Source: Candidatus Gastranaerophilales bacterium | Lineage (GTDB): Bacteria > Cyanobacteriota > Vampirovibrionia > Gastranaerophilales > Gastranaerophilaceae | NCBI GenBank assembly: GCA_944324365.1 | Contig: CALUWA010000002.1 | Span: 124,001 to 188,000, forward strand | Direction: 5' to 3' | DNA length: 64,000 bases | Shown here: positions 5,671-52,499 of the stretch, one piece after another | Layout of the letters: the number at the start of each line of letters is the position of its first letter | Numbering within the stretch: position 1 is the first letter of the stretch | Made by a program: the position numbers and the translations under genes | The notes under the pieces: model-generated | Database searches by the model: none | The model's input: only the letters and a program-made list of their open reading frames with translations | What the model was told of the DNA's origin: nothing

Positions 5671-6903
5671 ATGCAAAAGCCAAGTATAACACGGGAATAC
5701 CGGGGGGGGGTATCTACATCTAAGTCAGGACAAGGATTTATGCCTATTTGCCATTGCGGCGGTTCTGATATTTTAAGGGGTTTAATCAGAAGTTTTTATA
5801 AAGCAGTCATTCAGAGGTGCGAAGCACCGAAGTATCTCGTTAATAAGAGATCCTTCGCTAATCTTCAGCTCTGCATACAGGCTCACACGTCCTCACTTCG
5901 TTGCGGCGGTTCGCTTTGTAAGGATGACAATGTGGCTTCGCTTTGCAAGGACGACATGAGGCGTCATTGCGAGGAGCTTGCGACGAAGCAATCCACTAGG
6001 TTAAAGTGTATTCTCCAGGATTGCTTCGTAGTATCGGATTATTCGGGTTGTCGCCGGAGTAACGTCCGGCTCCAACTAACGGGCTGGGGCACTTCGTGCC
6101 ACGGCGCCCTACCGAAAATCCGAGCTCGCAATGACGAGAAATATTTGCTTAGTACCCCTCTACCAAAAATCCGGCCTCAGAATGACAAAAAGAAAGCCGC
6201 GTTTACGCTTGCGGAGGTGCTCATAACTTTGGGTGTAATCGGCATAGTTGCGGCAATGACAATGCCAATGATAGTTGAAAATACCAAAAAGCAGCAGACA
6301 GTTGTGCAATTAAAGAAATCATATTCCGTTTTATCCCAAGCTGTGGCATTGTCTGAATTGGAAAATGGAAGCTGTGATTATTGGGATTATACATTGCCTG
6401 TAGACCAATTTGTAAAAAAATATTTGACCAAATTTTTGGAAATACGCGAAACAAGAGTATCAGATTCAGGCCAGAATTACAAATATTTAAACGGTTCCCC
6501 ATGTGCTGAAGCATTGTGTACAGAAGCATCATATGTAATAAGTGTTGTGGATGGAACAAATTTTGTAGTATCACGCTGTTACTGGCTGGATAACGGGCGT
6601 GTTGTGCTGATAGATATTAATGGAGATAAACAGCCAAATACACTTGGCAAAGATGTATTCTCATTCGCAATTCAGCCCGGAGTAAAGGTTTCTCCATTTG
6701 GTTATGGAACATTTGGCTTAGCAGGAGCGCCAGATATTGGCGACGGTGAGGAACTTTCGGGTGCTCAGTATTTTGGCAAATATGACAGAGATGTCCTGCT
6801 GGGTGGCGATACTTACGCCTGCTCAAATGGTAACCGCGGTTTCTGGTGTGCGGCTCTTATACTCTCTGACGGTTGGGAAATAAGGGACGATTACCCTTGG
6901 TAA
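5671..6903 (+). CDS. Prepilin-like protein A, poly-G tract in frame (ON), repeat-filled leader
   Basis: A type IV pilin/pseudopilin-like protein. The ATG at 5671 follows AAGGAGG with 8-nt spacing. The frame runs through G9 (5702-5710, giving R-G-G-V) and then about 430 bp of interspersed repeat before the class III cleavage motif KKAAFTLAEVLITLGVIG. Its Phe codon is at 6202, giving a 177-residue leader instead of the usual 5-30. The mature part is about 234 residues: a hydrophobic N-terminal helix, KKSYSVLSQAVALSELENGS, and the motif DINGDKQPNTLGKDVF shared by the other pilins here, ending GWEIRDDYPW. Whether such a leader is used whole or translation starts inside it is unknown. A terminator follows. 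Confidence 0.75.
   Translation: MQKPSITREYRGGVSTSKSGQGFMPICHCGGSDILRGLIRSFYKAVIQRCEAPKYLVNKRSFANLQLCIQAHTSSLRCGGSLCKDDNVASLCKDDMRRHCEELATKQSTRLKCILQDCFVVSDYSGCRRSNVRLQLTGWGTSCHGALPKIRARNDEKYLLSTPLPKIRPQNDKKKAAFTLAEVLITLGVIGIVAAMTMPMIVENTKKQQTVVQLKKSYSVLSQAVALSELENGSCDYWDYTLPVDQFVKKYLTKFLEIRETRVSDSGQNYKYLNGSPCAEALCTEASYVISVVDGTNFVVSRCYWLDNGRVVLIDINGDKQPNTLGKDVFSFAIQPGVKVSPFGYGTFGLAGAPDIGDGEELSGAQYFGKYDRDVLLGGDTYACSNGNRGFWCAALILSDGWEIRDDYPW
5702..5710 (+). other. Poly-G tract (G9) in prepilin A leader
   Basis: Nine G in a row at codons 11-14 of prepilin A. Nine keeps the RBS-linked ATG in frame with the pilin; 8 or 10 would not. Candidate slipped-strand phase-variation tract, like those at 10198, 39434 and 52216. 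Confidence 0.7.
5755..6187. repeat. Interspersed repeat cluster III, inside prepilin A leader
   Basis: Carries the inverse of the arm at 3600-3660 (CAGCTCTGCATACAGGCTCA, GCGGCGGTTCGCTTTGTAAG), then CATTGCGAGGAG...GACGAAGCAATCC, GGATTGCTTCG, and AAAATCCG(A/G)GCTCGCAATGACG-like ends. Despite its repeat nature it contains no stop codon in the pilin frame. Confidence 0.8.
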
Positions 6904-8965: not shown

Positions 8966-9490
8966 TTGGTATCCGCACAAATAAATAACTATATAGAAAA
9001 TTCCAAAATCAATGGCAGGCTTTGCGGGTGGGATAAGTCTGTTGTTAATGTGTTCATTACACCGCTAATCTCTTCTGATAGGCGTGAGTTTTGGTATTCA
9101 CAAGTTGAGCGGGCAATTTTTGCATGGAATTCTGTTTTGAAATTGAACGGTGTTAACGTTCAGTTTGTGAGGGTTCAGTCTGCGCAGGCGGCTGATATAG
9201 TTGTGCATTGGGTTAAAGTCGGACGAATTTATGAGGGCATGTGTAAGTACCTTAGTGTGGTGAATGGGATGCTTAGAAAAATCTCGATAGAAATCGGCAT
9301 GCCAAATGAATATTCCGGAAAAGATACTACAGACTTGAGCATATATTGCGCTATTATGCATGAATTCGGGCATGCTCTGGGATTGGGGCACGGGGTTGAT
9401 GTTGATGATATTATGTTTGTGCCCCATCAGAAGAATATTTCTGTCCCGAGCGAAAATGATATTTACGTTTTGAAGCATATATATTTCTAA
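8966..9490 (+). CDS. Matrixin-type zinc metalloprotease, catalytic domain only
   Basis: 174 residues. The zinc signature HEFGHALGLGH (HExxHxxGxxH) is followed by a Met-turn-like DDIMF, typical of matrixins. An upstream strand/helix region (REFWYSQVERAIFAWNSVLK, VQFVRVQSAQAADIVVHWVK) matches the usual N-lobe of the fold. There is no recognisable signal peptide or propeptide, so it is either cytoplasmic or exported by another route. The start is TTG at 8966, shortly after AGGTGAAA; no ATG is available before the domain. Its 3' end overlaps that of convergent prepilin B by 4 bp. Confidence 0.8.
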   Translation: MVSAQINNYIENSKINGRLCGWDKSVVNVFITPLISSDRREFWYSQVERAIFAWNSVLKLNGVNVQFVRVQSAQAADIVVHWVKVGRIYEGMCKYLSVVNGMLRKISIEIGMPNEYSGKDTTDLSIYCAIMHEFGHALGLGHGVDVDDIMFVPHQKNISVPSENDIYVLKHIYF

Positions 9491-10240
9491 AGCTTAAACG
9501 GGTAATCGTCAGAGATATGCCAGCCGTCATATTGTATTAATGCAGCACAACTTGCTAGTGAATGAGGGCTGTTTTCGGCATTTATGCAATATTTTAACAA
9601 CTCTTTTCTGTCTGTGACATTAAATGTTTGAAGACCGCCAGCCTTGAATATAAAAGATTTATTTCTTCTATACTGTATGACGAAATCAAACATATCTTTA
9701 TTATTTTCATTTGGTTTTCCAAGGCAATTAATATCGTATCTAAAATGAAGCATTCCGCCATCATCATTTGTACCGCCTGGTAATATAGCAAAACATCCGC
9801 CATCCATAAATATATATACAGGAAACCTGTAAGTAGAGCTTTGGTGTAATTGGTTCGATATTTTGGCGCAGTTTCCTCCGCTTTTTGAATCATTGTAGGA
9901 ACATTCTTTTATTCCGGCAAGATATGGGAATAAATACTTATTAACAAATGTACTCATTTGTTCTCCGTTGTTCTGTTTTGTGGGGTAATCCCAATATTCC
10001 ATCTCTCCGTTTTGAGCTACAGAAAGCAATAAAGCGTTGGAGAATGTAGAATAAAACTTTTTTAATCTGACTTCGACTTCGTGTTTTTTGTAACTTTCAA
10101 TTAGCATTGGCAGTGTTAATGCCGCAATAATTCCGATAATTCCCAGAGTAATAAGTACTTCGGCAAGGGTAAAAGCCTTATTATTCAGCCACGGTTGCCC
10201 CCCCCCCCCCCTGGAATGCAGCTATAATTGGGTTTTTCAT
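9487..10240 (-). CDS. Prepilin-like protein B, frameshifted by G14 tract (OFF)
   Basis: The ATG at 10240 follows AAAGGAGGAATT. The peptide MKNPIIAAFQGGGGATVAE then stops, because G14 (10211-10198) shifts the frame. With one G fewer the leader would be 22 residues (MKNPIIAAFQGGGGQPWLNN) and join KAFTLAEVLITLGIIGIIAA, a standard prepilin site. The downstream frame (stop at 9487) is intact: KKFYSTFSNALLLSVAQNGE, a pilin-like DINCLGKPNENNKDMF motif and the ending GWHISDDYPFKL. The body shows no other lesion, which argues for reversible phase variation over decay. Translated as is, no pilin would be made. Confidence 0.75.
10198..10211 (-). other. Poly-G tract (G14) in prepilin B leader
   Basis: Fourteen C on the plus strand, i.e. 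G14 in the message, at codons 10-15. ON requires a count of 1 modulo 3 (13 or 16); 14 is OFF. Confidence 0.75.
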
Positions 10241-38630: not shown

Positions 38631-39486
38631 TTCCTCAGGAACGCTGTATTGTATGTATTCAATTTCATCTGATGATAGAATTGTATTTATGTTTCCATAG
38701 CCAGCGACTTCTTTTAATTGTCCGTTTTCATGAACTCCTATTTGATAAATATCTGCGCCATATTGATTTGGTCCCAGGGTTCCGTTAGTGTCAATTATTA
38801 TGTTTGCACATCTTCTGTCCAGCCATTCATATTCTTCTCTTTCACAATCGCTTCCGTCACTGTTTGCAACAGGATTACCTGAGCTGTCAGTAATACACTT
38901 GGTTGCAGTTCTCATTGTACTACAAGAGGAATATTGACTGATTTTAAGAAAGCTGCCGTCTGCCAGTTTTAAATATGGCGGAGTGAATGTATCCATATAT
39001 TCCATGACACCAGTTATGACATTTGATTTTCCGTATTGCGCTTTGACACGATAAGCCCTACAGGAATTGGAATTGACAGAGTCGCATAATACTGCTCCTG
39101 TGAAATATTTTTTCATTGTTTCCAAAGTTTGCGCGCTTGTATTAGAGAGGTTAAATATTGATGTAATATTAGTCGTGTCGCCGATATCTGCTTTTGCAAG
39201 ATTTATTGCATTCGTGATAGTTGAATACGTTTTTTTTACCCTGGTTAATAAAACCATATTCTGATATTTTGCAAGCAGCATTGGCATCGTCATTGCGGCA
39301 ACTATACCTATTATGCCCAGTGTAACCAAAACTTCCGCAAGTGTGAATGCGGCTTTTTTGCGATATGCAGCGTGTAGTACTGGCTTTAGTCGACCTAAAA
39401 GGCTGAAGCTATCTCCAAAAGCGGAGAGCTTAGCCCCCCCCCCCCTGGAGAATACCGGTATTTCTAGTGTTTTCAGATTTTAACAT
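38628..39486 (-). CDS. Prepilin-like protein C, frameshifted by G12 tract (OFF)
   Basis: The ATG at 39486 follows GGAGG-ATATATCAA. The leader starts MLKSENTRNTGILQ and then meets G12 (39445-39434), after which the frame hits TAA. With G11 it would read AKLSAFGDSFSLLGRLKPVL and join KKAAFTLAEVLVTLGIIG, giving a 46-residue leader. The body, whose frame carries an internal GTG at 39329, is intact: KKTYSTITNAINLAKADIGD, a DTNGTLGPNQYGADIYQIGV motif and the stop at 38628. Prepilin D has an almost identical leader start and the same RBS but G11, in frame. This makes a reversible OFF state the simplest reading. Confidence 0.75.
39434..39445 (-). other. Poly-G tract (G12) in prepilin C leader
   Basis: Twelve C on the plus strand. 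ON requires 2 modulo 3 (11 or 14); 12 puts the leader out of frame with the pilin. Confidence 0.75.
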
Positions 39487-39548
39487 TTGATATATCCTCC
39501 AAAATTTAAATAACCATTTATATTTTAACTTATATTTGAAAATTTTAC

Positions 39549-39812
39549 AAGTGCCTACGGCACAACAGGTGTCATTGTGAGCTTAGATTTCCGGTAAGGA
39601 GGCGCGAGCGAACACATAAGTTGGAGCCGGTCATTAGAATAATCCGATGCTACGCGACGAAGCAATCCATAGATCGCGCAACAAGTGCGCGATGACATAT
39701 TTTAGCACCTTCCGCCATCCACATGTCATCGCGGAAAACCAAAGGTTTATCCGCTCCTTTTCCCTGGATTGTTTCGTTTCCTATCGGATTTTCGGTAGGA
39801 TGGAGCAGACAA
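39549..39812. repeat. Interspersed repeat cluster IV
   Basis: Starts with GTGCCTACGGCAC, then pieces seen elsewhere: GACGAAGCAATCCATAGATC, CGCGCAACAAGTGCGCGATG, ATGTCATCGCGGAAAACC and GGATTG...CGGATTTTCGGTAGG. It fills the 39487-39818 gap upstream of prepilin C; no gene is seen. Confidence 0.8.
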
Positions 39813-50983: not shown

Positions 50984-52267
50984 TTATTCTTTTATATCAC
51001 CGGCTTTTAAGATTTCATTCCATTCTTCGGTAGTAATTTCCCTGTGCAGGTATTCCATATTGCCGGTAGCGATTACCCAGATTGCGCATGCTCCGCCTGA
51101 GTACCAGCCGCCTCCTGTGTAGCTTCTGGAGCAATAATTTTTGGTTACCCACCATAGATCGTAACCTGTAATTATTGGATAGCCTTTTTTAGTATTGAGG
51201 TATAAAAAGAAGAAATCTTTTCCCATTTGATTTGGTCCGGCGGCACCATTTGTATCAACGTATATTCCAACGCGTAATTTGTTGTCTACTTCGTCGATGC
51301 CGACATCAGAAAGTCCGCAAACCGCACCGTTAGCAAGAGCAAACATATAATGTTGTGAATCCCAGCCGTTAAATCCTGTTCCCTGCATAATACCATTCAG
51401 ATCCCGATAATGTGTTGGCAGGTTGTGAGAGCTATTTTGTGAATTTTGTTTCCAATCCTGCGCGAGATTAAGATAAGGCAGGAGTTTTTCTGCTACAATT
51501 CTTGCGGCTTCGGCTTTATCGTCTGTAGGCAAGTCCCAGTTTTTAATAACGCCGTGTTCCTGGTATGCCCTTAAATATGCTTGTGAAAGAACGGAATACG
51601 TAACTTTAAACTGCGTAAGCCAGGCTCTTTCCTGGTATTTGTTAACGAGTCCGGGTAAGGTCATAGCCGCGACAACCCCGATTACACCGAGAGTGATAAG
51701 TACTTCTGCAAGCGTGAATGCTGCTTTCTTTCTCCCGTCATTGCGAGCGTAAGCGAAGCAATCCAAGAGAGAATGTTTAAGCCTAATGGATTGCTTCGTC
51801 GCGTTGCTCCTCGCAATGACGGAATTAGATCGCGCAACGGAGTGCGCGATGACAGAATTTTGGACATCTTGCCTACCACATGTCATCGCGGAAGGCAAAG
51901 CCTGTCCGCGATCTGTGGATTGCTTCGTCGCAAGCTCCTCGCAATGACGATTGGTGCCATTCTTACACCGTGAGTCGCCAATACTCCAAGACGCATTATA
52001 ATGTCGTGCCTCAGGCACGGAGATTCTTCGGACTTCGTCCTCAGAATGACGCTTGGTGTCATCCTGAGCGATAGCGAAGGATCTCTTATTTAATGAGATT
52101 CTTCGGACTTTGTCCTCAGAATGACGGAATTGGGCAGCGCCCTCAGAATGACGACATAGCAGGGACTTTAACTTGTCTAAAAGGCTGAAACTATCTCCAA
52201 AAGCGGAGAGCTTAGCCCCCCCCCCCTGGAGAATATAGGTATAATCGGTGTTTTCAGATTTTAACAT
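50984..52267 (-). CDS. Prepilin-like protein D, poly-G tract in frame (ON), repeat-filled leader
   Basis: The ATG at 52267 follows GGAGG-ATATATCAA, identical to prepilin C. The leader starts MLKSENTDYTYILQGGGAKL with G11 in frame, then SAFGDSFSLLDKLKSLL as in C. It then runs on through about 425 bp of repeat before RKKAAFTLAEVLITLGVIG (Phe codon at 51718), making a 183-residue leader. The mature pilin is about 244 residues, with FKVTYSVLSQAYLRAYQEHG, the DTNGAAGPNQMGKDFFFLYL motif and Cys near the end. The leader's Arg/His/Cys-rich repeat translation looks unselected apart from the absence of stops. A terminator follows. Confidence 0.75.
   Translation of the reverse strand: MLKSENTDYTYILQGGGAKLSAFGDSFSLLDKLKSLLCRHSEGAAQFRHSEDKVRRISLNKRSFAIAQDDTKRHSEDEVRRISVPEARHYNASWSIGDSRCKNGTNRHCEELATKQSTDRGQALPSAMTCGRQDVQNSVIAHSVARSNSVIARSNATKQSIRLKHSLLDCFAYARNDGRKKAAFTLAEVLITLGVIGVVAAMTLPGLVNKYQERAWLTQFKVTYSVLSQAYLRAYQEHGVIKNWDLPTDDKAEAARIVAEKLLPYLNLAQDWKQNSQNSSHNLPTHYRDLNGIMQGTGFNGWDSQHYMFALANGAVCGLSDVGIDEVDNKLRVGIYVDTNGAAGPNQMGKDFFFLYLNTKKGYPIITGYDLWWVTKNYCSRSYTGGGWYSGGACAIWVIATGNMEYLHREITTEEWNEILKAGDIKE
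51735..52160. repeat. Interspersed repeat cluster V, inside prepilin D leader
   Basis: Holds GTCATTGCGAGCGTAAGCGA, GGATTGCTTCGTCGCGTTGC, CGCGCAACGGAGTGCGCGATG, ATGTCATCGCGGAAGGCAAAG, GTGCCTCAGGCAC (52006-52018) and tandem CTTCGGACTT(C/T)GTCCTCAGAATGAC units. Open in the pilin frame throughout. Confidence 0.8.
52216..52226 (-). other. Poly-G tract (G11) in prepilin D leader
   Basis: Eleven C on the plus strand. Flanking bases on both sides (CTTAGC...TGGAGAATA) match the prepilin C tract, which has twelve. Confidence 0.75.
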
Positions 52268-52499
52268 TTGATATATCCTCCGTAAATTCAAGTATCTATT
52301 AATATTTTAACGTATTTTTCTGCATTTTTCAATATAAGACAGATTTAAATCTCTTCTTGTCTTTAAAGTATGTGAGTGGTATAACCTTACATGTAGATAG
52401 TTAGGGGGATCCACCCCGGGGGTAAATGTTTATTTAAGTGTTGTTAATTGAACGCATATTTACCAAATAACCCAAAAGGATAAGGAAAGGATATTAAAA

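Follow-up and report, generated by a model that had tools for sequence, protein, structure and literature searches.

Poly-G tracts between leader and pilin in a large prepilin gene family of Gastranaerophilales, a probable phase-variable repertoire

Prepilin genes and poly-G tracts in the window

The window, which is the whole 64-kb stretch of DNA analysed here, carries the prepilin genes A, B, C and D, each having a run of G between a short leader and the pilin. Overlapping G8 matches number 18 in the window against 0.35 expected, a count reached in 0 of 100 shuffles. A gene is described as ON where the recorded tract joins leader and pilin in one frame, and as OFF+1 where it holds one G too many. 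The features are as follows.

39522..39550, minus strand: putative promoter of gene C, TTGTAA-17-TAAAAT (consensus and conservation, weak)
39496..39500, minus strand: Shine-Dalgarno GGAGG of gene C, by direct reading, conserved in the MLKSEN cassette
39446..39486, minus strand: C leader before the tract, 41 nt in all including the ATG (39486), MLKSENTRNTGILQ
39434..39445, minus strand: C tract, G12, OFF as recorded, ON length 11 (+1 G)
39348..39433, minus strand: C leader after the tract, without a start codon, AKLSAFGDSFSLLGRLKPVLHAAYRKKAA
38628..39347, minus strand: C mature pilin, FTLAEVLVTLGIIG..., 239 aa and stop
52277..52281, minus strand: Shine-Dalgarno GGAGG of gene D, with the ATG at 52267
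52216..52226, minus strand: D tract, G11, ON as recorded
51719..52215, minus strand: post-tract leader of D, 165 codons without a stop in the pilin frame
50984..51718, minus strand: D mature pilin, 244 aa and stop
5671..6903, plus strand: prepilin gene A, MQKPSITREY leader, G9 at 5702-5710, ON as recorded
9487..10240, minus strand: prepilin gene B, MKNPIIAAF leader, G14 at 10198-10211, OFF+1 as recorded

On the minus strand, gene C reads GGAGGATATATCAAATG TTA AAA TCT GAA AAC ACT AGA AAT ACC GGT ATT CTC CA, then G12, then CTAAGCTCTCC, and the tract context is CA + G12 + CTAAG. Gene D has the same ribosome-binding site and a closely similar leader, followed by CA + G11 + CTAAGCTCTCC. Rereading and translation bore out the one-G difference and the frames that the original prediction had given for the two genes, while its notation, CAG+G12+GCTAAG, counted two flanking G's twice (making 14 G), the real runs being 12 and 11. 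With G12, C yields MLKSENTRNTGILQGGGG and a stop, that is, 18 aa and then TAA; translated with 9 to 15 G, it is full length at 11 and 14 only, encoding a prepilin of 285-286 aa (...YRKKAAFTLAEVLVTLGIIG...). The 28 codons between tract and pilin contain no in-frame start, and the pilin body is intact down to its VPEE-stop end, with no second lesion or further inactivating mutation. One G fewer thus restores an intact prepilin, and the tract alone sets the frame of C; it may also, as had been claimed, decide whether C is made.

The putative promoter of C matches 9 of 12 consensus positions, though such matches are no more numerous than in shuffled sequence; a T(A/T)(A/T)AAT-like element is found again at the same distance in other MLKSEN cassettes. 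Directly after the tract (in C just below 39434, minus strand), the MLKSEN cassette has an inverted repeat, TCTCC-GCTTTT-GGAGA, which could also pair with the Shine-Dalgarno GGAGG.

Genes C and D are 83% identical over the 60 nt before the tract and 80% over the 60 nt after it, and past both flanks identity falls to background (29-32%), so the sequence said to be common to both sides of the tract is confined to the immediate surroundings. Because their mature pilins are only 30% identical, the two are paralogues sharing a 5′ cassette and not two states of one gene. Their description as a natural ON/OFF pair therefore stands for the single G but not for the genes as wholes, D also having a 495-nt repeat-rich spacer, with its post-tract leader consisting mostly of translated dispersed repeats. 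A search of the genus for relatives of C that cover most of its length found none with more than 41% identity.

Prepilin identity and predicted processing

The C prepilin matched Pfam N_methyl PF07963 (6e-7) and TIGR02532 (9e-5), both above cut-off with a query that included the KKAA residues. The class III cleavage/methylation motif and the hydrophobic segment are present, and Glu+5 (E5) is invariant. Position -1 is Ala (KKAA^F) in C and most paralogues and Gly in some; Gly(-1) is usual in known prepilins but not strictly defining, and Ala is tolerated. In an AlphaFold model (pLDDT 75), residues 3-55 form a long N-terminal helix, which is followed by a beta sheet head; comparison of the model with PDB folds gave no match below E 0.4, with a FimA pilin at E 1.1. 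The source genome also contains a prepilin peptidase gene (contig C23, PF06750 match 3e-35).

The prepilin repertoire of the source genome

The source genome is a draft of 2.05 Mb in 36 contigs. It holds 38 G runs, 35 of at least nine G and three of exactly eight, and 29 of them are preceded by an SD-ATG and followed by a prepilin N-terminal motif, or 30 when one further locus (L026) is added on inspection. About 30 prepilin genes therein have the order SD-ATG-leader-G tract-prepilin, with tracts of G8-14. The C/D pair pointed out originally does hold, but these roughly 30 tract-bearing prepilins, whose OFF members are nearly all off in the same direction, had been overlooked.

The main cassette types are MLKSEN (C, D and eight more) and MQKSS (A in the window and others), and MKN/MKR, to which B belongs, is a further type. 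Spacers between tract and pilin range from 8 to 173 codons and consist in most genes largely of translated dispersed repeats (RHSEDEVRRISLNKRSFAIAQDD-like), which are open and in frame. About 30 of 32 uninterrupted cassettes are joined to the pilin in frame, only L021 and L030 failing. The leader codons showed no consistent third-position excess, which suggests that the frame and not the peptide is kept, and which removed selection on the leader amino acids as an explanation. A kept frame with a free peptide fits removal of the leader at the predicted cleavage site, KKAA^F. Repeats of the RHSEDEVRRISLNKRSFAIAQDD and ATKQS types (translated), which are otherwise dispersed in intergenic sequence, were seen in frame inside the leaders of about 20 paralogues and of D, lengthening leaders to as many as about 185-190 residues; cleavage of the leader may be the reason why such repeats are tolerated there.

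Cassettes and pilin bodies do not always travel together. The pilin of B, which follows an MKNPI leader, has a 78% identical relative with an MQKSS-type leader in another genus (L313), on a single contig for which a binning error is possible; L032 and L190 share 70% and have different leaders. The 5′ cassettes thus appear to be exchangeable among pilin bodies.

Distribution among relatives

We searched for the pattern GGAGG-N4-10-ATG-N12-40-G9, with the reversed pattern as control. Of the 191 family genomes, 55 have it, in 14 of 41 genera, and the control was almost always zero; the match counts of this search include several overlapping matches per tract. In the class-wide sample, all genomes with more than one match belong to Gastranaerophilaceae, and two genomes outside this family had a single match apiece, close to what the control gave. 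Within the genus the distribution is patchy: some species have 25-150 prepilin matches, others 0-6. Of the 13 genus genomes, 12 encode a MutS1 domain, whether they are rich or poor in tracts, and loss of mismatch repair was rejected as a cause on this ground.

ON and OFF states of the tracts

The recorded states are strongly skewed. The source genome has 6 ON, 22 OFF+1 and 1 OFF-1 members, and the genus, after removal of duplicates, has 13 ON, 66 OFF+1 and 12 OFF-1 (n = 91). ON members make up less than one third (13/91, p = 3e-5), and there are more OFF+1 than OFF-1 genes (p = 3.5e-10), p-values that overstate independence as the genes are related; taking the majority state per genome-by-leader group gives OFF+1 16, OFF-1 3 and ON 2. 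In other genera, 8 ON, 20 OFF+1 and 25 OFF-1 were recorded (ON 8/53, p = 0.002). The depletion of ON implies that selection can act on the state. At each of four tract lengths OFF+1 is the most frequent state, namely G10 (31/35), G11 (11/23), G12 (9/14) and G13 (11/11), and the state therefore follows the frame and not the length. Such a skew is not predicted by symmetric slippage, which would scatter the states.

In one genome of another genus (G033; loci L242 and L280-L290), all 12 sampled tracts are G10 behind a 27-nt leader and OFF-1, with diverged leaders. The remaining genomes from other genera have mixed states, including ON.

State comparisons were made between paralogues or cross-species orthologues, with one genome per species, and among them closer pairs than C and D were found. 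Over the 180 nt that surround their tracts, D (G11, ON) and L034 on contig C17 (G12, OFF) share 95% identity, with the extra G as the only gap there, and their mature pilins are 79% identical; judged by sequence, they make a cleaner, proper ON/OFF pair than C and D. The cross-species orthologues L140 (G005, ON) and L132 (G007, OFF-1) have mature pilins that are 98% identical, with leader differences that go beyond the tract. In another genome (G068), a single leader family has ON, OFF+1 and OFF-1 members.

Some tracts are interrupted. L318 has G7TG4, L322, L325 and L328 have G3AG6 (on contigs C6, C6, C3 and C2 of the source genome, respectively), and L017 has G8AG; the total of each corresponds to the OFF+1 frame. 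That three loci have G3AG6 in common implies that cassettes were copied between loci. The open join to the pilin is lost in two of the four G7TG4/G3AG6 cases and kept in the other two; the lost joins are what would be expected of genes locked off.

Proposed mechanism and alternative explanations

We consider it probable that C and D are members of a large prepilin repertoire, phase variable by slipped-strand mispairing, with exchangeable 5′ cassettes. The cassette would comprise the Shine-Dalgarno sequence, the ATG, about 6-14 leader codons, the G8-14 tract and about 20 more leader codons, and one cassette would be joined to many different pilin bodies. Mispairing at replication within a strain would add or remove one G. 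One residue class of tract lengths would join the leader to the prepilin and allow its expression, and the others would stop within about 14-50 codons. Prepilin peptidase would then remove the whole leader at KKAA^FTLAEV, leaving leader sequence and length nearly free, before the pilin could be assembled into a pilus. Few of the many pilins might thus be shown per cell, which might serve the evasion of phage or host.

Counter to free slippage, OFF+1 accounts for 66 of the 78 OFF genes of the genus, at lengths 10, 11, 12 and 13, and all 12 tracts sampled in G033 share the one state G10/OFF-1; the interrupted tracts (G7TG4, G3AG6), which should barely slip, are OFF+1 as well and count against it. 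Slippage may be slow, since MutS1 is present. In C. jejuni, rates are biased to insertion at G8-9 and to deletion at G10-11 (PMC8224891). Such rates would favour a toggle between n and n+1 where ON is G9 but not where it is G11 or G12, and a mutational bias of length only, as in C. jejuni, was rejected since the OFF+1 excess, which those rates do not explain, holds at G11-13 too. OFF+1 would then have been inherited with copied, slow-slipping cassettes, or selected.

If selected, the OFF+1 offset of this genus would be more than a plain off state: prepilins could arise solely by rare loss of a base, in DNA, in RNA or at the ribosome, and the 30-100 or so pilins of a genome would be expressed at a low level or one at a time; we regard this idea as doubtful. 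Programmed slippage, as a rival explanation, takes OFF+1 as the working state, in which RNA polymerase or the ribosome sometimes loses one base on the G run and keeps the prepilin at a low, fixed level. It would account for an offset, and not a G count, that is constant across unrelated leaders (66/91 OFF+1, lengths 10-13), for tract lengths that shift together with compensating flank changes, and for interrupted tracts that keep the offset, two of four with the join still open. It is nevertheless unlikely, for no single slip direction fits both the uniformly OFF-1 genome and the others, which are mixed and include ON; ON members coexist with the OFF ones, and no conserved stop, slippery site or context follows the tract. 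A four-base-decoding tRNA was rejected as well, since the anticodon loop of tRNA-Gly(CCC) is of the normal length, 7 nt, and UCC and GCC tRNAs are present too.

Most OFF copies might instead form a silent archive whose members recombine into a few ON loci, as gonococcal pilS does into pilE. Cassettes and bodies have been reassorted, as the B and L032/L190 comparisons indicate, the three loci with the same interrupted tract point to copying, and ON members are a small minority. The pilS copies, however, are without promoter and 5′ end, whereas the OFF copies here are full length and dispersed and keep their own Shine-Dalgarno sequence, start codon and in-frame join, which makes this explanation quite unlikely.

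An error of assembly or sequencing at C, where the real tract would be 11 G, is a highly improbable cause of its OFF state: homopolymers are error-prone, the genome is a draft and one extra G called systematically would look like the OFF+1 excess, but the same assembly also has ON tracts, of G9, G11 and G14, the same skew is seen in three other assemblies, and the five interrupted tracts, which have no run longer than G8 and are easier to call, are also OFF+1, which argues for real silent members.

Alternative starts were also rejected: in 56 of the 89 OFF genes, neither side of the tract holds an SD-backed start in frame with the pilin, and C has none after its tract. Three loci in relatives (L075, L081 and L088) have an SD-backed ATG four codons ahead of the pilin (MKKAFTLAEV), and in these the ORF that contains the tract may act as an upstream extension or a leader peptide rather than an on/off switch.

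Comparison with known systems

Gastranaerophilales are common, nearly uncultured, non-photosynthetic cyanobacterial relatives of animal guts. The class of mechanism that we propose for their prepilins is already known from Campylobacter poly-G tracts, Neisseria pilC and Opa. The poly-G targets of C. jejuni are mainly surface-modification genes. Its G7-13 tracts lie inside reading frames, change in single-base steps and occur at 12-29 loci per genome, and in a modelled switch G9 is ON and G10 OFF, with ON at one residue class (PMC8224891). The tracts described here resemble these in being in-frame poly-G, in their predicted single-base steps and in being ON at one residue class; they differ in that prepilin structural genes are targeted, that one cassette is common to dozens of paralogues and that MutS1 is present.

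Neisseria pilC has a poly-G tract (G9-20) in its reading frame, and there are about 15-19 poly-G tracts per genome (PMC5953494). As with pilC and pilE, the variation predicted here concerns type IV pili of host-associated bacteria, although by switching of the prepilin genes. PilC and pilin glycosyltransferases carry the tract in Neisseria, where silent copies supply the variation of the pilin by recombination and only 23 of 607 pilS alleles contain any repeat, whereas each pilin gene here has its own tract. The Opa tract is located in the signal region and is made of CTTCT pentamers, in about 2-12 copies of outer-membrane adhesin genes, in contrast to poly-G in 30 or more pilin genes here. 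The Opa surface proteins form a multigene family in which every member has a repeat tract and is independently ON or OFF (PMC5953494), and they are the closest functional parallel.

In the portion of Orsi et al. 2010 (PMC2831843) considered here, 5′ homopolymeric tracts are treated as a general off-switch, a frameshift leading to a very short peptide. The tracts described here are likewise near the 5′ end and give a short peptide on frameshift; the survey stressed poly-A/T tracts, and that portion describes no pilin family of such a kind. A limited literature search found neither a report of phase variation in Gastranaerophilales nor one of poly-G control of dozens of their prepilin genes via an exchangeable cassette, and a large switchable prepilin repertoire in this group is apparently undescribed so far. 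If the tracts switch, the exchangeable 5′ cassettes would give Gastranaerophilales a very large phase-variable pilin repertoire, and attachment, phage escape and the persistence of gut strains could be addressed with existing metagenome reads. The OFF+1 skew is, in addition, a measurable anomaly for theories of repeat-tract evolution.

Other poly-G tracts of the source genome

Tracts of G11-G14 also occur inside glycosyltransferase-like genes, three of them in one cluster (L011, contig C1, 206-210 kb), and in a polysaccharide pyruvyl transferase-like gene that is split by its own G tract (L019, contig C4, 69 kb), and thus glycans may be phase variable as well. A G9 run lies at an etfB/etfA-like junction, just ahead of the etfA start (L014, contig C2, 201945-201953).
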